Below are positions 3,317-13,373 of a DNA stretch of 64,000 nucleotides, one piece after another; position 1 is the first letter of the stretch, and every line of letters begins with the position of its first letter. A model generated the notes under the pieces. The model was not told the origin of the DNA and did no database searches. It worked only from the letters and a program-made list of their open reading frames with translations. Source of the stretch: Burkholderia sp. HI2500 (GTDB taxonomy: Bacteria; Pseudomonadota; Gammaproteobacteria; Burkholderiales; Burkholderiaceae); assembly GCF_002223055.1 (NCBI RefSeq), contig NZ_NKFL01000006.1, forward strand, positions 1,736,001-1,800,000, written 5' to 3'. A program made the translations under genes and the position numbers.

Positions 3317-4125
3317 GATTGCGGGTCCAGATCGGCCCAGACGCTGCTCCACGGCACACTGCCGAGCTGCGCGGGCGGGACGGCGAATTCCGCCGGGTAG
3401 CCGACGTGGGCGAGATACAGCCCGTCGGCCATGAACGTGGGCGCCGCAAGCTTGCGATCGCGCCCGGCCAGCACGTCGGCGAGCCAGTCGGCCGGATAGC
3501 GGCCGCGACCGACCGCAACGAGGCAGCCCATCAGGTTGCGCACCATGTGGTGCAGGAACGCGTTGGCGCGGAACCGGAAATGGATGAAATGGCCCACGCG
3601 CCGCACGTCGATCTGATACAGGTGTTTGACCGGCGTCTTCGACTGGCATTCCGACGACCGGAACGACGAGAAGTCATGCTCGCCGATCAGATGCGCGGCG
3701 GCTGCGCGCATCGCGTCGTCGTCGAGCGGCGTATGGATCCAGCCCGCGCGCCCCGCCAGCATCGGCGAGCGCACGGGATGCACGTACAGCGTGTAGTAAT
3801 AGGTGCGCTCGAACGCCGAGAAACGCGCGTGGAACGTGTCCGGCATCGGCTTCGCCCATTGCACCGCCACGGTCGGCGGCAGGAACGCGTTGGTGCCGCG
3901 CACCCACGAGAAAACCTCCCGATCGAGGTCGGTATCGAAGTGCACGACCTGCCCGAGCCCGTGCACGCCCGTGTCGGTGCGCCCGGCCACCGTCGTATGC
4001 AGCGGCACGCGCGCGAACTCGGCCAGTGCGTGCTCGAGCCGATCCTGCACGGTCTTGCCGTGCGGCTGCGCCTGCCAGCCGCAGAACGCCGCGCCGTCGT
4101 ACTGGATGCCGAGCGCGATCCGCAT
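3313..4125 (-). CDS. truA: tRNA pseudouridine(38-40) synthase
   Basis: TruA makes pseudouridine at positions 38-40 of the tRNA anticodon arm. The 270-residue protein opens [18 protein letters not shown] and carries the catalytic aspartate in GRTDTGVHG near residue 52. Later blocks such as [14 protein letters not shown] and [16 protein letters not shown] are typical. The ATG at 4125 shares one base with the fimV stop (TGATG) and its own stop overlaps the trpF start, so fimV, truA and trpF are tightly coupled. A GTG three bases earlier (4128) is an alternative start. Confidence 0.96.
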
Positions 4126-6329
4126 CACGCCTCGTCCGCCAGTTTCGCGAGCAGCGCGCGCGCATCGTCGCGCGTCGCGGCGTCATTCGCGTCGACCACT
4201 TCCTGCAGCAGCGTCCGCGCGCCGGACAGGTCGCCCAGCTCGACATATTCGGACGCGAGGTCGAGCTTGTTGCGCGCGATGCGGGCGAGTTCGTCCGGCG
4301 TCAGCGCCGGCAACGCAGCGCCCGGCGCGGACGGCAGGTCGAGATCGAAATCAAGCTTCAGCGCGCCGAACTGCGCGCCGCCGAGCGGCGGCAGCGACGA
4401 CGTCGCGAACGGGCTGCCCGCCTGGGTTGCCGGCGTCGCTGCGTCCGGATCCCAATCGAACTCGTCGTCCTGATCGGCCGGATGTTCCGGGGCGGGATCG
4501 GTCGAGCCAATCGGGAGACGCTGTGCGGCTTGACCGTTAGTTGCGATTTTATCGGTGTCGGACTGCCCTGCTTGCGCAGCCGGCTCATCCGCCGCCAGCG
4601 ACGGCTCGTCCGGCGTGCGCGGCGGCAGCGGCATGTCGAGGCTGCTGAGCGCGCTGATCGCGTTCTGCATCAGCGCCGCGTGCTGCGCATCTGTGGCCGC
4701 GGGTGCGGTCGGCGTTTCCACCTGCGTCGCTACCCGTGTCTCCACCGACGTCTCGATCGGCGTCTCTAACGACGTTTCGACCGGCGTTTCGGCCGCGTCC
4801 TTTTCGATCGGCTCGGCATCGTGCGAAACCGGAGCCGTCTCGCTCGCGGGCGGCACTGCCGCGTGTGCGGTCGGCAATTCAGGCTGCTCGACATGCGGCT
4901 TCGCCACATCCGACGACGGCGACAGATCCGTATCCGGTGTCTCGACCGGCTCCGCCGCTGCGGCAGTCGCCGCGGCAAGGTTCAGGTCGGAAGCGGCATC
5001 ACGCGCGACCGGCATCTCGGGCCGGATCGGCAGTTCCGGTTCGACGGACGGCGCGGCTTCGGCTTGCGCAGCGGCAGCCGCCACCGTGACTCCGCCCGCT
5101 GCCGTGGCGGCAGCCAACGTGTCCGTCCCCGCATCGTCCGTGCGTCGGCTCTTCCTGCGCTTGCGCCACGCGAAACCTGCCGCGAGGACGATCACGGCCG
5201 CACCGGCCACCGCGGCCGGACGCCAGTCCATCTGCTCGTTACTGCGCGCAGGTGTCACCACCGGCGCGGCCGGCTGCGCGGGCACCGATACCGATGCCGG
5301 CTGCACTGCGCTGGCAGCAACGCCGGATGCCGCTTCGCCGGTCGTCGACGCAGCCGCAGCCGCGGACGCGCCCGCATCGCTCGCGGCCGGACGCGGCGCG
5401 ACAGGTGCCGGTGCCGGCTTGAGCTCGTTCGTCGTGGCCGGCTTGCCGATACCGTGCTTCTGCAATTCCATCAGCACGCGGTTCTTCAGCGCCAGCAGTT
5501 GCTGCAGGCTCGACGGCCGCGGCTGCGACGCGCCCGTGACCGGTGCCGCGCCAGCCGGTTCGTTCATGCCCGGAACCTGGCTGCCCGACACAGGCGGGGT
5601 CACGGCCCCGCTCGCGGACGACGGCACTGACTGGATCGTGCCGCTCCACACATGCGGACCGCTTGCACCGGTCACGGGTGCCGCCGGCTGCATGCTTTCG
5701 ACAGCCGATGCGCCGTGGGCAGCCGAAGTACCGACCGATGCCGAAGCACCGACGGATGCCGACGCACCGGCGGCCGTCGCGACGCTCGCACCGCTGACAG
5801 GCGCCGCATGCACGGCCGGCGCCACCGGCGCGGATTGCACGGTCGACCCCGGATGCGGTGCGGACGCACCATGCTGCGCGACTGCCGTGCCGCCCGATGC
5901 GGCGGCGGGTGCGGACGCTGCCGCCGCACCGGACGCACCGGACGCACCGGATGCAGCGGATGCAGCGGCCGGCACGACTGCCGCGCCTGTCGCATCGAGC
6001 GCCGGCACGGTCAGCGTCGCGCCGACTTTCAGGCGGCTCGCGTCGCGCTTCATGAACGCCTGCGGATTGGCGTCGAATAGCGCGCGGCCGGCGCGCGCGA
6101 GCACCCCGGGATCGCGCGACTGCGTAGCCGCCTTCGCGATGTCGTTCAGCGACTGGCCCGGCTGGACCGTCACGGTAAGCGGCGCTGCGCCGTCGGCAGC
6201 GGATGCCGGCAGTTCGCCGGTGCCGGCCGCCCAGGCCGATGCGGTTGCGCCGAGCGCCAGGATCGCCAGCGCGCCACGCACGGCGCGCGACAGACGGGAC
6301 TGACGCGGAAACAAGGAAATTCGGGACAT
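4125..6329 (-). CDS. fimV: FimV/HubP-like polar peptidoglycan-binding protein
   Basis: FimV-type proteins mark the cell pole and organise type IV pili, type II secretion or chemotaxis machinery. The 734-residue protein has a signal sequence ending around SAWA, a LysM-like block ([18 protein letters not shown]) and a long Ala/Pro/Ser-rich low-complexity stretch. One membrane helix follows ([17 protein letters not shown] with a basic anchor), then an acidic cytoplasmic segment and the conserved C-terminal TPR-like cap ([25 protein letters not shown]). I chose MSRISLF at 6329; an upstream in-frame extension to 6407 lacks family features. The gene heads the truA-trpF-trpB run. No pilus genes are near, so the exact partner is unknown. 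Confidence 0.9.
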
Positions 6330-6406
6330 CGTTGGCTCTATCGCCGCGCGCGGGCGCGGCTCGGATTCGCGGTTGAAAGCGTCAATAAGGTTGCCGCAGA
6401 AATGCA

Positions 6407-6433
6407 AAAGCGTCGCGTGGAACGCGACGCTTT
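6407..6433 (-). repeat. Perfect 12-bp inverted repeat upstream of fimV
   Basis: AAAGCGTCGCGT at 6407-6418 pairs perfectly with 6422-6433 across a three-base loop. It lies about 75 bases before the fimV start. Read on the minus strand the hairpin is followed by TTTTGCATTTC, a weak U-tract, so it could be a terminator for a short upstream transcript or a leader hairpin of the fimV mRNA. No gene upstream on this strand needs a terminator. Confidence 0.6.
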
Positions 6434-7178
6434 CGGCGGGTCTGTGCGTCGTAACCGCGTAGTTTACTTCACGTGATCAGGTTCGGGCCGAATTCATCGC
6501 CGACGGGCGCAACCGATTGCGTGCGCGCGTCGGGACATCCCGCGATCGCGCCGCGTGGATGTCCGGTTGCGCACGCTGCGACCCGCGCCCACGATCGACC
6601 GGAAGTGCGCCTCGCTCAGAGGCAAAGCCATCCGGCCGCATCGCCCGCCGAACGCATATCACATGCCTTTGCTCACTCAACGATGCGATCCGCACAACCC
6701 AAGGGACAACACGGAACCACGACCGGAGAATCAGGTACGTTTGCTCAATAATTTGCGCTACTTGCCGTTAATGGATTAACAAGCGCCAATCAAAATAAAT
6801 CCAGTCGGCCACCACCCCATTCAAATGAATTTCAATTGATCGATAAGAGGCCAATTCCCCTCTCTGATCATCGAATTGAACATCCCTGCCGCCAACCCCC
6901 CATCCCACAAGGCTTTCCAGCCTCGCCGCAGCTTCATTTCTCATACGAAATCAATCATTTCGACATCAATTCAATTTCATTACACAAAATTACACAGATC
7001 AAATAATTGCCGTCGCTACGATCGTCCTCAAACAAGAATCGGCGCAGTTCGACCATCGCGCCCGCACCCGCCGGAACAGCGGGAACGCGGTCGGCCTGGC
7101 TGACGCCGTGAGGTGCCAGGGAGGCATCGCGCAGTCGCACGACTGCATTTACTCACCAGCTCGTTACGGGGATCGAAC
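6434..7178. other. Gene-free region upstream of flgE, with AT-rich part
   Basis: I see no protein gene in this 745-base stretch. About 6720-7020 is clearly AT-richer than the surroundings. It carries an ATTACACA direct repeat with a ten-base period (6979-6986 and 6989-6996), several TCAAT runs, and GCCGTTAA at 6764-6771, which is one base from the sigma-28 minus-10 consensus but lacks a good minus-35. GTTTAC at 6462-6467 fits the GTWWAC target expected for the methyltransferase encoded at 505-1356. It also overlaps a minus-strand TAAACT that could be a minus-10 element facing fimV. AT-rich promoter regions of this kind are common targets of H-NS-like silencers. Confidence 0.55.
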
Positions 7179-8423
7179 ATGGGCTATCAACAGGGCTTGA
7201 GCGGGTTGGCCGGCGCGGCGAACCATCTCGACGTGATCGGCAACAACATCGCGAACGCGAACACGGTTGGCTACAAGCAGGGTCGAGCGAACTTCGCCGA
7301 CATGTACGCGAACTCGGTCGCGACGTCGACCAACACGCAGATCGGCATCGGCACGCGGCTCACGTCGGTGCAGCAACAATTCGGCCAGGGGACGATCAAC
7401 ACGACGAAGTCGTCGCTCGACATCGCGATCAACGGCAACGGCTTCTTCCAGATGTCGAACAACGGCGTGACGACGTACTCGCGTGACGGCGTATTCCACC
7501 GCGACAAGAGCGGCGCCATCGTCGACGCGCAGAACCGCAACCTGATGGGCTATGCGGCAGGGCCGGGCGGCGCGATCAACACCGCGGCGACCGTGCCGCT
7601 GCAAGCGCCGACCACCAACATCGCGCCGCAGGCGACGACGAAGGTCACCGGCCAGTTCAACCTGAACTCGCAGGACAAGGTGCCGGCCAAGACGCCGTTC
7701 AACGCGGGCGACAACACCACGTACAACTACAATTCGTCGATCCAGGTGTACGACACGCTCGGTGGCTCGCAACAGGTGTCGATGTATTTCGCGAAGAACG
7801 CGGCAGGTACCTGGCAGGCCTACGCGGGCGTGCAGGGCCAGACGCCGACGAATCTCGGCACCGTCACGTTCGACGCATCGGGCCGGATCAGCTCGACGAC
7901 GTCGGCCGCAACCGGCCAGCCGACGCCGAGCCTCGGCCAGTTCGCGTTCTCGATCCCCAACGCGTCGGGCGGCGCCAATCCGCAAAACCTGACGCTCGAC
8001 CTGACCGGCACGACGCAGTTCGGCGGGAAAAGCGGCGTGAACAACCTCGCACAGGATGGCTTCGCGAGCGGCACGCTGACGACGTTCTCGATCGGCAGCG
8101 ACGGCAAGCTCACCGGCAATTACTCGAACGGCCAGAGCGCGGTGCTCGGCCTGATCGCGCTCGCGAACTTCAACAACCCGAACGGGCTCGAGAACATCGG
8201 CGGCAACCAGTATGTGGAAACCACCGCGTCGGGCGTGCCGCAGATCTCCGCGCCGGGCAGCACGAACCACGGCACGCTGCAGGGGAGCGCGCTGGAAAAC
8301 TCGAACGTCAACCTGACGACCGAGCTCGTGAACCTGATCAAGGCGCAGCGCGATTACCAGGCCAACGCGCAGACGATCAAGACCCAGCAGGCCGTCGACC
8401 AGACGCTCCTGAACATGCGCTGA
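7179..8423 (+). CDS. flgE: Orphan flagellar hook protein FlgE paralogue
   Basis: The 414-residue protein has the FlgE architecture. The N-terminal rod/hook motif LSGLAGAANHLDVIGNNIANANTVGYK comes first, then the conserved INGNGFF strand and middle domains rich in Thr/Asn/Gly. The C-terminal ENSNVNLTTELVNLIKAQRDYQANAQTIKT helix polymerises the hook. It is full length, yet no other flagellar gene lies nearby, so it is a stand-alone copy beside amino-acid genes. It lies on the opposite strand to asd and fimV. The start at 7179 (MGYQQGLSG) was chosen because the helix begins there; upstream codons are not family-like. It could serve as an alternative hook subunit; that is inference. Confidence 0.92.
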   Translation: MGYQQGLSGLAGAANHLDVIGNNIANANTVGYKQGRANFADMYANSVATSTNTQIGIGTRLTSVQQQFGQGTINTTKSSLDIAINGNGFFQMSNNGVTTYSRDGVFHRDKSGAIVDAQNRNLMGYAAGPGGAINTAATVPLQAPTTNIAPQATTKVTGQFNLNSQDKVPAKTPFNAGDNTTYNYNSSIQVYDTLGGSQQVSMYFAKNAAGTWQAYAGVQGQTPTNLGTVTFDASGRISSTTSAATGQPTPSLGQFAFSIPNASGGANPQNLTLDLTGTTQFGGKSGVNNLAQDGFASGTLTTFSIGSDGKLTGNYSNGQSAVLGLIALANFNNPNGLENIGGNQYVETTASGVPQISAPGSTNHGTLQGSALENSNVNLTTELVNLIKAQRDYQANAQTIKTQQAVDQTLLNMR

Positions 8424-8433
8424 CCCGCACATG

Positions 8434-8480
8434 AAAAACGCGCCGCGCCAGCCTTGATATCGTCAAGGCCGACGCGGCGC
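8434..8480 (-). terminator. Terminator between flgE and asd
   Basis: A long stem pairs GCGCCGCG (8440-8447) with CGCGGCGC (8473-8480), with an inner CCTTGA/TCAAGG stem. Read on the minus strand it ends in TTTTT, so it terminates asd; read on the plus strand it may also end flgE. Confidence 0.8.
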
Positions 8481-8527
8481 GCAATCTTGTGCACCGCGGC
8501 CCGCATCTCGCGGGCCGGACACGCCAC

Positions 8528-9649
8528 TTACTTGTCGAGCAGGATGCGCAGCATGCGGCGCAGCGGCTCGGCCGCGCCCCACAGCAGCTGGTCGCCGACC
8601 GTGAACGCCGACAGGTATTCACCGCCCATCGCGAGCTTGCGCAGGCGGCCGACCGGCACCGTCAGCGTGCCCGTGACGTTCGCCGGCGACAGGTCGCGCA
8701 TCGACGCTTCACGCTCGTTCGGCACGACCTTCACCCAGTCGTTCGCCGATGCGAGGATGCCGTTGATCTCGTCGAGCGGCACGTCCTTGTTCAGCTTGAT
8801 CGTCAGTGCCTGCGAGTGGCAGCGCATTGCGCCGATTCGCACGCACAGGCCGTCGACCGGGATCGAACCCGGCTCGCCCATCGCCGGCTTGCCGAGGATC
8901 TTGTTGGTTTCCGCGCCGCCCTTCCACTCTTCCTTCGACATCCCGTTACCGAGATCCTTGTCGATCCACGGAATCAGCGAGCCGGCGAGCGGCACGCCGA
9001 AGTTGCTCGTCGGCATCGCGTCGCTGTTCATCGCGGCCAGCACGCGGCGGTCGATGTCGAGGATCGCGGAAGCCGGATCGGCGAGCTGCGCCTGAACCGC
9101 GCCGTTCAGCGTGCCCATCTGCGCCAGCAGCTCGCGCATGTTCTGCGCGCCCGCGCCCGATGCGGCCTGGTAGGTCATCGCCGTCATCCAGTCGACGAGG
9201 TTCTCGCGGAACAGGCCGCCGAGCGCCATCAGCATCAGGCTGACCGTGCAGTTGCCGCCGATGAAATTCTTCTGGCCCTTGACCAGCGCGTCCTTGATCA
9301 CGTCGAGGTTGACCGGATCGAGGATGATGACCGCGTCGTCCTTCATCCGCAGCGACGATGCCGCATCGATCCAGTAGCCGTTCCAGCCGGCCGCGCGCAG
9401 CTTCGGGAACACGTCGTTCGTGTAGTCGCCGCCCTGGCACGTGATGATCACGTCGCACTTCTTCAGCTCGTCGACGTTGGTCGCGTCCTTGAGCGTAGTC
9501 TCGTTTTTCGCGAACGACGGCGCTTTGCCGCCCGTGTTGCTGGTGCTGAAAAACACCGGTTCGATCAGGTCGAAATCGCCCTCTTCCTGCATGCGCTGCA
9601 TCAGGACGCTGCCGACCATGCCGCGCCAACCTACGAGACCTACGTTCAT
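8528..9649 (-). CDS. asd: Aspartate-semialdehyde dehydrogenase
   Basis: Asd reduces aspartyl phosphate to aspartate semialdehyde, the branch point to lysine, diaminopimelate, threonine, isoleucine and methionine. The 373-residue protein matches the Gram-negative form. [20 protein letters not shown] is the NADP-binding loop, Cys134 in GGNCTVS is the nucleophile, and the substrate-binding histidine lies in [12 protein letters not shown]. It follows leuB on the same strand but has its own promoter and a candidate leader peptide between 9730 and 9884. It is terminated by the hairpin at 8434-8480. Confidence 0.98.
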
Positions 9650-9729
9650 GACTAACCCTTTGATGGAGCTTCCCCGCCATTCCGTCCCCGGTGTGACCGC
9701 GCGGGGAAATAGGCGGGCACGACGGACGA

Positions 9730-9849
9730 TCAGCGTTTAATGATCGTTTTCGTGGTAATGGTTTTCGTGATGACGATGGCGCGCGCACCCGCACGGGCTG
9801 TGTTGCCGTGGAGTTTCAAGACCGGGGAGATCAGGGAAAGATGCGCCAT
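9730..9849 (-). CDS. Candidate Thr/Ile/Lys leader peptide of asd
   Basis: This 39-codon frame begins [10 protein letters not shown] and ends [19 protein letters not shown]. The last 15 codons hold five Thr, five Ile and three Lys codons, with mixed synonymous codons, 80 bases before asd. Asd feeds threonine, isoleucine and lysine synthesis, so this resembles the E. coli thr operon leader. The bases after the stop contain competing pairings. TTCCCCGC can pair with GCGGGGAA, and the shorter TCCCCG can pair with CGGGGA, but no U-run follows, so a Rho-independent terminator is not proven. The ATG lies six bases after a good minus-10, which would make the message leaderless. Confidence 0.65.
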
Positions 9850-9855
9850 CGTTCG

Positions 9856-9884
9856 AGTCTACACAAAGCCGGTGGCCCGCACAA
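9856..9884 (-). promoter_or_regulatory. Sigma-70-type promoter for the asd leader
   Basis: On the minus strand TTGTGC (9884-9879) and TAGACT (9861-9856) are separated by 17 bases. Transcription would start at or next to the leader ATG at 9849. Confidence 0.65.
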
Positions 9885-9947
9885 CGGCCAACCGCATGCG
9901 AACCGGCCGATTTCGCGGCCTGTTCGCGCCCTTTCTACATGATCGCG

Positions 9948-11015
9948 TTACAGCGCCGCGACCACCGCGTCGCCCATCGCCGTCGTGCCGACCTGCAGGC
10001 AACCCGGCGTCGCGATATCGCCCGTGCGGTAGCCCTGTTCGAGCACCGTTTTCACCGCACGCTCGATGCGATCGGCCTGCTCCGCGCGATTCAGCGAGTA
10101 GCGCAGCATCATCGCGGCCGACAGGATCGTCGCGAGCGGATTCGCGATGCCCTTGCCCGCGATGTCCGGCGCCGAACCGTGCGACGGCTCGTACAGGCCC
10201 TTGTTGTTCTTGTCGAGCGACGCCGACGGCAGCATGCCGATCGAGCCCGTCAGCATCGACGCTTCATCCGACAGGATGTCGCCGAACATGTTGCCGGTGA
10301 CGATCACGTCGAACTGCTTCGGCGCCTTCGCGAGCTGCATCGCCGCGTTGTCGACGTACATGTGCGACAGCTCGACGTCCGCGTATTCCTTCGACACGTC
10401 GATCATGATGTCGCGCCAGAACTGCGACGTCTCGAGCACGTTCGCCTTGTCGACCGACAGCAGCTTCTTCGCGCGCTTGCGGGCCGCCTGGAACGCGACG
10501 TGCGCGATGCGGCGCACTTCCGGTTCCGAATAGCGCATCGTGTCGAAGCCTTCGCGCTCGCCCGCGAACAGGCCGTCCGGTGCGGCGCGCACGCCGCGCG
10601 GCTGGCCGAAGTAGATGTCGCCGTTCAGTTCGCGCACGATCAGGATGTCGAGGCCCGCGACCAGCTCGGGCTTCAGCGGCGAGGCATCGACGAGCTGCGG
10701 ATAGCAGATCGCCGGGCGGAAGTTCGCGAACAGCTCGAGGTGCTTGCGCAGCCCGAGGATCGCCTGCTCGGGGCGCAGCGCGCGCTCGAGCGAGTCGTAC
10801 TTCCAGTCGCCCACGGCGCCGAACAGGATCGCGTCGGCTTCCTTCGCGAGCGTCAGCGTCGCGTCGGGCAGCGGATGGCCGCTTGCCTCGTAGCCCGCGC
10901 CGCCGACCGGCGCCTGTTCGAGTTCGAACTTCTCGTCGAGTGCGTTCAGCACCTTCACCGCTTCATTGACGATTTCCGGACCGATGCCGTCGCCGGGCAG
11001 CACTGCAATCTTCAT
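9948..11015 (-). CDS. leuB: 3-isopropylmalate dehydrogenase
   Basis: LeuB oxidises and decarboxylates 3-isopropylmalate to 2-oxoisocaproate with NAD. It has 355 residues, the usual length. Visible motifs are [16 protein letters not shown], the arginine-rich substrate region ([18 protein letters not shown]), YVDNAAMQL and [15 protein letters not shown] with the metal-binding aspartates, and the NAD-binding [14 protein letters not shown]. It is the last gene of the leuC-ecn-leuD-leuB run, 79 bases after leuD. Identification is certain. Confidence 0.98.
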
Positions 11016-11094
11016 GCGAAATTCCTGACTGGGTAGGTTTTTATGGAGGCGGGCCGGCGAACGCGCCGCCGGCGCGCCCGCCCGAAAGGCGATC

Positions 11095-11745
11095 TCAGCC
11101 GACCAGCTTGGTGTTGAGCCACGGCTGCTTCACGAGACGCTCGGCCTCGAACTGGCGGATCTTGTCCGCGTGGCGCAGCGTGAGGCCGATGTCGTCGAAG
11201 CCGTTCAGCAGGCAGTACTTGCGGAACGCCGCGATCTCGAACGGATACTCGCGGCCGTCGCCCGTGCGCACGACTTGCGCGTCGAGGTCGACCGTGACTT
11301 CGAAACCGTTGAACGCGACCGTCTCGTTGAACAGGTGATCGACCTGCTGCTCGGTCAGCACGATCGGCAGCAGGCCGTTCTTGTAGCAGTTGTTGAAGAA
11401 AATATCGGCGAAGCTCGGCGCGATGATCGCGCGGAAGCCGTACTGTTGCAGCGCCCACGGCGCATGCTCGCGCGAGCTGCCGCAGCCGAAGTTCTTGCGC
11501 GCGAGCAGCACGGATGCGCCCTGGTAGCGCGGCTGGTTCAGCACGAAGTCGGGATTCAGCGGGCGCTTCGAGTTGTCCTGGCCCGGCTCGCCGTGATCGA
11601 GATAACGCCATTCGTCGAACGCGTTCGGACCGAAGCCGGTGCGCTTGATCGACTTCAGGAACTGCTTCGGGATGATCGCGTCGGTGTCGACGTTTTCGCG
11701 ATCGAGCGGCGCCACGACGCCGGTATGCACAGTGAATTTTTCCAT
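11095..11745 (-). CDS. leuD: 3-isopropylmalate dehydratase small subunit
   Basis: LeuD is the small, swivel-domain subunit that with LeuC isomerises 2- to 3-isopropylmalate. The 216-residue protein shows [12 protein letters not shown] near the N-terminus and the substrate-binding loop [13 protein letters not shown] at about residues 88-100. It lies 68 bases after the entericidin-like gene and upstream of leuB on the same strand. Confidence 0.98.
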
Positions 11746-11813
11746 GATCCGTCTATCCGGTTGAAGGGCCGGCGTTCAGCCGGCGCACATCGACAAATTC
11801 TCGGTGGGGGACG

Positions 11814-11960
11814 TCACTCCGCGGCGCGCTTCAGCGCGCTGCCGGCGGCGTTGACGTCCTGCCCGAAGCCCTGGACGGTATTGCAGCCCGCGAGGCTGAA
11901 GCCCAACCCTGCGAGCGCCAGCGCGGCAACCAGCCGCGCAATGATTTTCGATGCCGTCAC
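11814..11960 (-). CDS. Entericidin A/B-family small lipoprotein between leuC and leuD
   Basis: This 48-residue protein starts with GTG three bases after the leuC stop. It has a basic N-terminus, a hydrophobic signal helix, a lipobox LAGC with Cys26, and a short tail NTVQGFGQDVNAAGSALK typical of entericidins. Those are small lipoproteins linked to envelope stress and programmed lysis in enterics. Its position suggests coupling to leuC translation. No toxin-antitoxin partner of the same family lies beside it, so its role here is unknown. Confidence 0.88.
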   Translation of the reverse strand: MTASKIIARLVAALALAGLGFSLAGCNTVQGFGQDVNAAGSALKRAAE

Positions 11961-11963
11961 GCG

Positions 11964-13373
11964 TCACCCCAGCTGGCGAATGTCGACGAAGTGACCTTCG
12001 ATGGCCGCGGCTGCCGCCATCGCGGGGCTCACGAGGTGCGTGCGACCGCCCGCGCCCTGCCGGCCTTCGAAGTTGCGGTTCGACGTCGACGCGCAGCGCT
12101 CGCCCGGCTCGAGCCGGTCGGCATTCATCGCGAGGCACATCGAGCAGCCCGGCTCGCGCCATTCGAAGCCGGCGTCCGTGAACACCTTGTCGAGCCCTTC
12201 GCGCTCGGCCTGTGCCTTCACGAGGCCCGAGCCCGGCACGACCATCGCAAGCCGCACGTTCGACGCGACGCGACGGTTCAGCTTCTTCACGACATACGCG
12301 GCTGCGCGGATGTCTTCGATTCGCGCGTTCGTGCACGAGCCGATGAAGATCTTGTCGACCTTGATCGATTCGATCGGCGTGTTCGGCTCGAGCGCCATGT
12401 ACGCCAGCGCACGCTCCATCGCATCGCGCTTGACCGGATCCTTCTCGCGCTCGGGATCGGGCACGCGGCCGTCGATCGACGTGACCATTTCCGGCGACGT
12501 GCCCCACGTGACCTGCGGGACGATTTCGGCGGCGTTCAGCTCGACCACGCGATCGAACTGCGCGCCGTCGTCCGACTTGAACTGGCGCCAGTATTCGACG
12601 GCCTGGTCCCATTCCGCGCCGGTCGGCACGAACGGGCGGCCCAACAGGTAATCGATCGTCGTGTCGTCGACGGCAACCATGCCGGCGCGCGCACCGGCCT
12701 CGATCGCCATGTTGCAGACGGTCATGCGGCCTTCCATCGTCAGCGCGCGGATCGTCGAGCCGCCGAATTCGATCGCGTAGCCCGTGCCGCCGGCCGTGCC
12801 GATCTTGCCGATGATCGCGAGCACGATGTCCTTCGCGGTACAACCGCGCGGCAGCGTGCCCTCGACCTTCACGAGCATGTTCTTGCTCTTCTTCTGCAGC
12901 AGGGTTTGCGTGGCGAGCACGTGCTCGACTTCCGACGTGCCGATGCCGTGCGCGAGCGCACCGAACGCGCCGTGCGTCGACGTATGCGAATCGCCGCACA
13001 CGATCGTCATGCCCGGCAGCGTCGCGCCCTGTTCCGGCCCGATGATGTGGACGATGCCCTGGCGCACGTCGTTCATCTTGAACTGCGTGATGCCGAACGC
13101 ATCGCAGTTCGCGTCGAGCGTGTCGACCTGGAGCTTCGAGACGGGATCGGCGATGCCGTGGCTGCGATCGGTGGTCGGCACGTTGTGGTCCGACACGGCC
13201 AGGTTCGCGCTGATGCGCCACACCGGACGCTGCGCCATCTTCAGCCCTTCGAACGCCTGCGGGCTCGTGACTTCATGCAGCAGCTGACGGTCGATGTAGA
13301 GCAGGGTCGTGCCGTCTTCCTCGGTGTGGACCACGTGGGTGTTCCACAGTTTGTCGTAGAGAGTCTGTGCCAT
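11964..13373 (-). CDS. leuC: 3-isopropylmalate dehydratase large subunit
   Basis: LeuC carries the [4Fe-4S] cluster of isopropylmalate isomerase. The 469-residue protein shows the aconitase-family blocks [13 protein letters not shown], the cluster cysteine in [14 protein letters not shown], and the pair [10 protein letters not shown]. The C-terminal [18 protein letters not shown] is the signature of the LeuC branch. It heads the leu run; a CATAAT minus-10 lies about 45 bases upstream. No leucine-rich leader peptide is convincing. Confidence 0.98.

Follow-up and report, generated by a model that had tools for sequence, protein, structure and literature searches.

Ribosome-mediated attenuation by leader peptides has long been known, and thrL of the Escherichia coli thr operon (Thr_leader in Rfam) is a functional analogue of the leader that we describe here upstream of asd in Burkholderia sp. 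HI2500. Lys, Thr, Met, Ile and a cell-wall building block all derive from one precursor, which asd supplies, and its control therefore sets the flow of the whole pathway. As in thrL, a run of Thr and Ile codons stands before aspartate-family genes and is followed by competing hairpins. Unlike thrL, which precedes thrABC, the leader described here is directed at asd, is without a U-run terminator and without a match in Rfam, is probably leaderless, and adds Lys codons (267 of 1272) to the run, which fits asd because asd precedes the Lys branch. In the E. coli tna operon, TnaC arrests the ribosome at its own stop codon through the nascent peptide and free Trp; tna, which is Rho-dependent, shares with the asd leader a leader peptide and the lack of a U-run terminator, whereas the asd leader would stall ribosomes by starvation at its control codons.

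Two further systems are close in single traits. The RNA of Sinorhizobium meliloti trpL begins with the ATG of the leader frame, making its leader peptide leaderless, as that of asd probably is, but trpL carries Trp codons and acts through transcription termination, and we claim no sequence relation (PMC7298713). For the LEU element of actinobacterial leuA, a leader peptide with a pseudoknot and missing attenuator parts has been proposed in a paper that also names the tna operon of E. coli (PMC1262725). The LEU element resembles the asd leader in its codon-run leader peptide, in pseudoknot helices set against an alternative hairpin and in the missing attenuator parts; it differs in its Leu codons, its gene and phylum, and in the proposal that its own codon run pairs with the Shine-Dalgarno (SD) sequence (PMC1262725).

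A literature search over titles and the beginnings of abstracts, with few subscription papers covered, returned no description of an asd leader peptide. A cmscan search of positions 8000-12500 against Rfam 15, up to an E value of 5, gave five matches, none overlapping 9650-9884, and the leader itself matched no Rfam family (Thr_leader, the lysine riboswitch, T-box or others). We regard as new here the asd target, the use of Lys beside Thr and Ile, the probably leaderless frame and a putative attenuator hairpin without a terminator. Attenuator screens seeded on Rho-independent terminators would miss such leaders; one published protocol is said by its own authors to miss Rho-dependent cases (PMC2965389).

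The leader frame at the asd locus and in relatives

The window is the whole stretch of DNA analysed, 64,000 nucleotides long, and all positions refer to it. The order on its minus strand is leuB, promoter region, 39-codon frame, 80-base spacer and asd, with the following features.

9948..11015, minus strand: leuB, the upstream neighbour, given for context (from the list of open reading frames; identity by eye and from the initial annotation)
9879..9884, minus strand: weak -35-like hexamer TTGTGC, spaced 17 bases from the -10 and agreeing with the consensus at 3 of 6 bases (candidate)
9856..9861, minus strand: -10 hexamer TAGACT, 6 bases 5' of the leader ATG (conserved in relatives)
9730..9849, minus strand: leader-peptide frame, 39 codons plus TGA (from the list of open reading frames and comparison of relatives)
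9733..9777, minus strand: last 15 leader codons, of which 13 are Thr, Ile or Lys (control codons)
9656..9661, minus strand: likely SD sequence of asd, AAAGGG (by eye)
8528..9649, minus strand: asd, the proposed regulated gene (from the list of open reading frames and relatives fetched by Asd protein)

The initial annotation had pointed out a 39-codon frame, 80 bases from asd, with Thr, Ile or Lys at 13 of its final 15 codons, and such a frame is seen at 9849..9730 (minus strand), its stop lying 80 bases upstream of the asd ATG at 9649. The frame is tiny, rich in Thr, Ile and Lys codons and absent from the existing gene annotation. In all six frames of the 64-kb window there is a single run of 12 consecutive A[A/C/T]N codons, the runner-up having 6. 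A short, putatively translated frame with a run of end-product codons is thereby placed immediately before the gene, as in a leader-peptide attenuator. Downstream of asd lie a convergent frame that by eye resembles a flagellar hook protein (7113..8423, plus strand) and, beyond it, a long Ala-rich frame (4125..6407, minus strand, also by eye), and asd is therefore probably the sole gene under the leader.

Sequence comparison places the leader widely before asd in the relatives of Burkholderia. Asd relatives were fetched by protein alone, the leader being ignored, and the best 80 loci were kept; L043, with its 5' end cut, was dropped, leaving 79. A leader frame with 8-12 Thr, Ile or Lys in 12 codons lies upstream of asd in 46 of these 79 best loci, namely in records named Burkholderia, Paraburkholderia, Caballeronia and Trinickia (L002-L041 and L046), in four Cupriavidus and in one Burkholderiales MAG (L061). 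The remaining 33 asd loci, which include Limnobacter, Pandoraea, Massilia, Zoogloea, Janthinobacterium and one Burkholderia sp. record (L042), reach a maximum of 6 in 12 codons. For closer comparison we assembled 106 leaders, comprising the window, 45 loci fetched by Asd and 60 from genome searches, the latter chosen by best model score or by hand for variety, with a frame of at least 8 Thr, Ile or Lys in 12 codons near asd as the entry condition. Left out were the 33 leader-free loci, L061 with its different spacer, L137, whose contig stops short of asd, L142, which has lost the leader, L145, which is not an asd locus, and L082, which is the window itself. With the end of leuB located by a rough pattern, the leuB-asd gap measures 298-481 bases in leader-bearing loci (82 of 106) and 35-172 bases in leader-free ones (22 of 33). 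The initial annotation had proposed a comparison of this spacer; frame and Thr/Ile/Lys run persist in relatives, the opposite of the outcome named there as speaking against a leader peptide.

A covariance model built on the leader's 3' portion finds a single place in the window's own genome, before asd, and a further copy of the element elsewhere in that genome was accordingly rejected. Within the family the model matches 269 of 398 genomes, in 9 of 25 genera, with a single match, whatever its gene context, in 268 of the 269. Order-wide it matches 7 of 399 genomes, six of them in the window's family; the seventh match, L145, lies at a locus with no Asd motif. All 30 genomes hand-picked for variety match at E values up to 1. 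Two 1.2-Mb genomes among these 30 fell outside the stricter filters of the family search: G007 keeps the leader (L141), and G028 has lost it, with a leuB-asd gap of 320 bases (L142) that is occupied by an A/T-rich inverted repeat with a T-run. At a hom locus (L146), where hom adjoins thrC-like and aminotransferase-like frames, the 3.5 kb read held no frame with at least 8 Thr, Ile or Lys in 12 codons.

A promoter pair had also been claimed in front of the frame, and its -10 half stands up well. We required A at position 2, T at position 6 and at least 4 of 6 bases of TATAAT, permitting gaps of 4-11 bases; such a hexamer lies 6-9 bases 5' of the ATG in 102 of the 106 leaders, at a gap of 6 (68 leaders), 7 (14), 8 (17) or 9 bases (3), with TAGACT (58) and TATATT (37) among its forms. 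L141 has no recognisable -10, and nine leaders of a related MAG group, described below, have TACAAT or TAGAAT 7-8 bases before the frame ATG (9 of 9, by eye). The -35 half fared worse, as TTGTGC shares 3 of 6 bases with TTGACA and a sigma-70 scan of 9000-10500 gave no promoter above threshold. The place of the -10-like hexamer, shared by 102 of 106 leaders, makes a leaderless frame probable, as the initial annotation had suspected, with about 0-3 bases of 5' leader as judged from the conserved -10. Leaderless messages have been described in B. cenocepacia (PMC4603805) and C. metallidurans (PMC7563307); 'asd' is absent from the main texts of both papers.

Competing helices and the proposed switch

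Beyond the control codons, the segments follow one another in the RNA in the order 1, 2, A, 3, A', SD, AUG.

9741..9747, minus strand: segment 1, ACGATCA, inside the last codons; pairs with TGATCGT over the stop codon
9713..9732, minus strand: segment 2, UGAUCGUCCGUCGUGCCCGC, begins at the stop codon; partner of 1 or of 3
9701..9709, minus strand: segment A, UUUCCCCGC, in the 2:3 loop; partner of A'
9682..9700, minus strand: segment 3, GCGGUCACACCGGGGACGG, partner of 2; in the A:A' loop
9669..9677, minus strand: segment A', GCGGGGAAG

Segment A lies inside the 2:3 loop and segment 3 inside the A:A' loop, so that these helices are mutually exclusive or form a pseudoknot. Simultaneous formation of full-length 2:3 and A:A' as a pseudoknot was rejected as sterically unlikely by reasoning alone, few bases joining 3 to A'. 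The initial annotation had named two competing pairings after the stop. That of TTCCCCGC with GCGGGGAA is real, the CGTCC pairing is part of the longer 2:3 helix, and the antiattenuator helix is larger than had been drawn. Its consensus is UCGUCCG-U-CGUG-C-CCGC with GCGG-U-CACG-C-CGGGCGA, 15 pairs with two 1x1 mismatches, strongest in rows such as L119 and L125 and looser in its lower part in the window's copy.

Comparison of relatives supports the competing helices to different degrees. Cognate 2:3 pairs have a mean energy of -22.35 against -20.88 for permuted pairs, and 0 of 2000 permutations were as good (56 distinct pairs). Alignment A2 was built from 58 of the 64 distinct rows, with L004, L021, L038, L039, L114 and L141 set aside. 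In it 89.4% of the 2:3 cells are paired, against 33-60% when the strands are slid, and 13 cells carry a change on each side, compared with 3.1 in shuffles; neither pair types nor double-changed pairs are more numerous than in shuffles. CCGC:GCGG becomes CUGC:GCAG in 9 A2 rows, all Cupriavidus or genus g3, rows that our analysis also counts as one genus. The covariation support for 2:3, with few events, is hence moderate. The 1:2 helix, a 7-bp hairpin around the stop codon, has 91.6% of its cells paired with covariation measures no higher than shuffles; L125 shows a matched change, its stop being TAA (not TGA) and its codon side GATTA (not GATCA). Within A2, 99.8% of A:A' is paired and the helix does not vary; its covariation comes from L141 alone, the 1.2-Mb genome in which both arms are replaced by complementary A/U-rich arms, AUUCUAAG with CUUAGAAU. 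In L039 and L114, outside A2, the A' arm is damaged.

The predicted energies of the alternatives are similar. Over the 106 leaders the 2:3 and A:A' stretches have mean minimum energies of -21.7 and -20.9 kcal/mol, 2:3 being lower in 69, and the window's own values are -17.9 (2:3 stretch), -18.6 (A:A' stretch) and -7.6 (1:2). The unconstrained fold of the window leader is unexceptional (z -0.65 over 200 bases, -1.60 over 125 bases), and its minimum-energy fold mixes pairings, 2 with A' and A with 3, which is a weakness for the switch model. Comparison and energy together point to mutually exclusive helices, one of them over the control codons and stop, with moderate covariation, and in the predicted anatomy 1:2, 2:3 and A:A' match the parts of protector, antiattenuator and attenuator hairpin respectively.

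We propose, with a probability of roughly 0.8, that the leader is a cis-acting, ribosome-mediated leader-peptide attenuator of asd, which very probably raises asd when Thr, Ile or Lys run short; stalling and the direction of control would follow the standard logic of such leaders. Transcription would start at or a few bases from the leader ATG, giving a leaderless message whose Thr/Ile/Lys run is then translated. A shortage of charged tRNA for any of the three would stall the ribosome on the run, where it would cover segment 1 and leave segment 2 free to pair with 3; the 2:3 loop would then hold A, A:A' would not form and asd would be on. With ample amino acids, the ribosome would cover segment 2 at the stop, or depart and let 1:2 form, and with segment 2 occupied A could pair with A' and asd would be turned down. 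The fuller version falls a little short of an even chance in our judgement: a leaderless leader peptide polling Thr, Ile and Lys, with a translational attenuator working through a pseudoknot-like switch, in which 2:3 would act as an anti-sequestor hairpin that hides A, the strand otherwise making the off-state. Such a leader polling three products would amount to simple cumulative feedback at the RNA level. If this is true, a Lys-reading leader peptide with an attenuator that lacks a terminator would be widespread in Burkholderiaceae and in the related MAG group.

The output step

The initial annotation had remarked on the lack of a U-run, and this was borne out: 9000-10500 contains no terminator-like site, and no U-run follows A' in 75 rows inspected by eye. 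With neither a U-run after A:A' nor a terminator-like site in that region, a classical intrinsic terminator is unlikely as the output. Reduced translation initiation of asd has about even odds of being the final step, and Rho-dependent termination, as an alternative to translation control or a consequence of it, appears less probable. Translation is somewhat favoured because the 2:3 loop of the MAG group is complementary to, and covaries with, the SD of asd.

The MAG group was obtained by searching the relatives of L061's genome (the same genome as L148) with its Asd; 58 of 61 matched, giving 30 loci, 29 of them with a readable asd start. A frame with at least 7 Thr, Ile or Lys in 12 codons is present in 10 of the 29, and nine share one layout. 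The best predicted duplex joins the pre-stop Thr codons to segment 2 in 8 of these 9 (L151 differs), and in L177 a codon change from ACG to AAG (Thr to Lys) accompanies GUCGUG to GUCUUG in segment 2. Helix 2:3, GGUUCGUC with GACGAGCC, is nearly invariant here and its permutation test uninformative (388 of 2000). Complementarity joins the 2:3 loop to the SD of asd, as in CGCCCUU with AAGGGCG (L148) and UGCCCUU with AAGGGCA (L176), with duplexes of -9.3 to -18.9, and none of 2000 permutations did as well as the cognate loop-SD pairs (n=9, related sequences). AAACAG..CUGUU arms stand before the SD in 5 of 9 loci, and some have T-runs. Translation control is the plain reading of the sequences of this group. 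Since both groups share the motif UUCGUCGUG (as in Cupriavidus), the segment order, the probably leaderless frame and the target, we suggest a common origin of the MAG and main-group leaders. Upstream of asd in L169 stands a further Thr/Ile/Lys leader of another build (..SIKRTTTIITKTVMKG, TAG); it has a strong hairpin at TCGTCCCGC..GTGGGACGA, preceded by a CCTCC stretch.

In the main group, sequestration of the SD by segment 2 or by A was not supported, 1548 and 1780 of 2000 permutations being as good (n=66). With the two states forced, predicted SD openness is nearly equal (off 0.54, on 0.58-0.59), the SD being more open when on in 41 of 106 leaders and less open in 27.

The strongest competitor, to which we give tentative credence, keeps the same sensor and ends in Rho: full translation would free the C-rich, G-poor stop region for Rho, and a stalled ribosome would let 2:3 lock up this stretch. 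Any termination here would need a factor, there being no U-run; a 68-base stretch, spanning the control codons to A inclusive, has a C-over-G excess that 1.1% of equally long windows of the 64-kb sequence reach; and all three genomes examined (G007, G028 and G046, the first two being reduced) encode the RNA-binding domain of Rho. The C excess is modest, however, and weaker in L141 (17 C and 9 G of 74), where the hairpins persist; Rho would leave A:A' without a clear role, and the MAG group points to SD sequestration.

Translational control could also take another form, which we consider unlikely, with an off-state in which segment 2 pairs with the start of asd and a long-range loop encloses A:A' and keeps the start region closed.

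9611..9628, minus strand: codons 8-13 of asd, with which segment 2 might pair at long range (suggestive only)

Against asd codons 7-16, cognate segments 2 average -19.75 and permuted ones -19.40, with 1 of 2000 permutations as good, and this is the strongest of 19 asd windows, although two others reach -18.6 and -18.2. The pairing appears in 7 of 8 constrained off-state folds inspected; it is absent from the eighth, that of the Cupriavidus locus L056. In the Cupriavidus-like group asd codon 10 is GGA in 12 of 13 and segment 2 reads CCUGCC, GGA being rare elsewhere in asd (31 of 2780 Gly codons, codons 41-300), but codons 8-13 also encode the conserved GWRGMVG motif.

Among 79 sequences of the Burkholderia/Paraburkholderia/Caballeronia-type group, fourfold sites at the start of asd have a majority share of 0.925, compared with 0.798 (resampling P 0.0002). 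This synonymous constraint is real, and we discounted it as evidence for the leader because leader-free asd genes also often use GTA GGT (20 and 26 of 33). All 99 distinct asd genes with the leader have the rare GTA GGT as codons 3-4 (window 9649..9632 and relatives). In L016 and other Paraburkholderia the SD runs into ATGAAGTC, followed by the ATGA of asd, and a three-codon frame in this region has its stop overlapping the asd start.

Selection on the leader peptide

The initial annotation held that the Thr/Ile/Lys run is selected as peptide, and comparison of the 106 leaders agrees. Codons -13 to -2 hold 8-12 Thr, Ile or Lys, at least 8 in some 12 codons being the entry condition, and comprise 474 Thr, 345 Ile and 267 Lys among 1272. 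The three residues interchange at single positions; codon -12 of the rows ending in TGA, for instance, is Ile in 41 and Thr in 36 of 85. Peptide length ranges from 37 to 55 codons among the 102 rows that have a -10, by changes that stay in frame, and the stop-to-asd spacer varies too, between 80 and 93 bases. The first ATG after the -10, taken blindly, is in frame in 99 of 105.

The same data bear on whether the frame encodes a small protein with a function of its own, or the leader RNA works in trans, with nearness to asd reflecting no more than promoter sharing. An N-terminal block (..ISQISSIS.LHGKTARA..), conserved in Paraburkholderia and partly elsewhere, exceeds what control codons need and speaks for a protein, but the N-terminal half diverges between groups (L119, L130, L148) and the Thr/Ile/Lys tail, stop and hairpins stay. 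The one place in the window's genome, before asd, and the single match per genome in 268 of 269 likewise argue against both versions, which we regard as improbable. A chance low-complexity run, conserved as DNA and untranslated, is very improbable, for although segment 1 lies inside the frame and puts the final codons under RNA constraint too, codons -12 to -7, outside segment 1, swap among Thr, Ile and Lys codons and the length changes in frame.

Three of the six exceptions to the blind ATG rule (L014, L017 and L099) have an in-frame ATG 5 bases past the first. In the other three (L039, L114 and L118) the frame is broken at its 5' end and the Thr/Ile/Lys tail is kept; L039 is a Candidatus Burkholderia pumila record.
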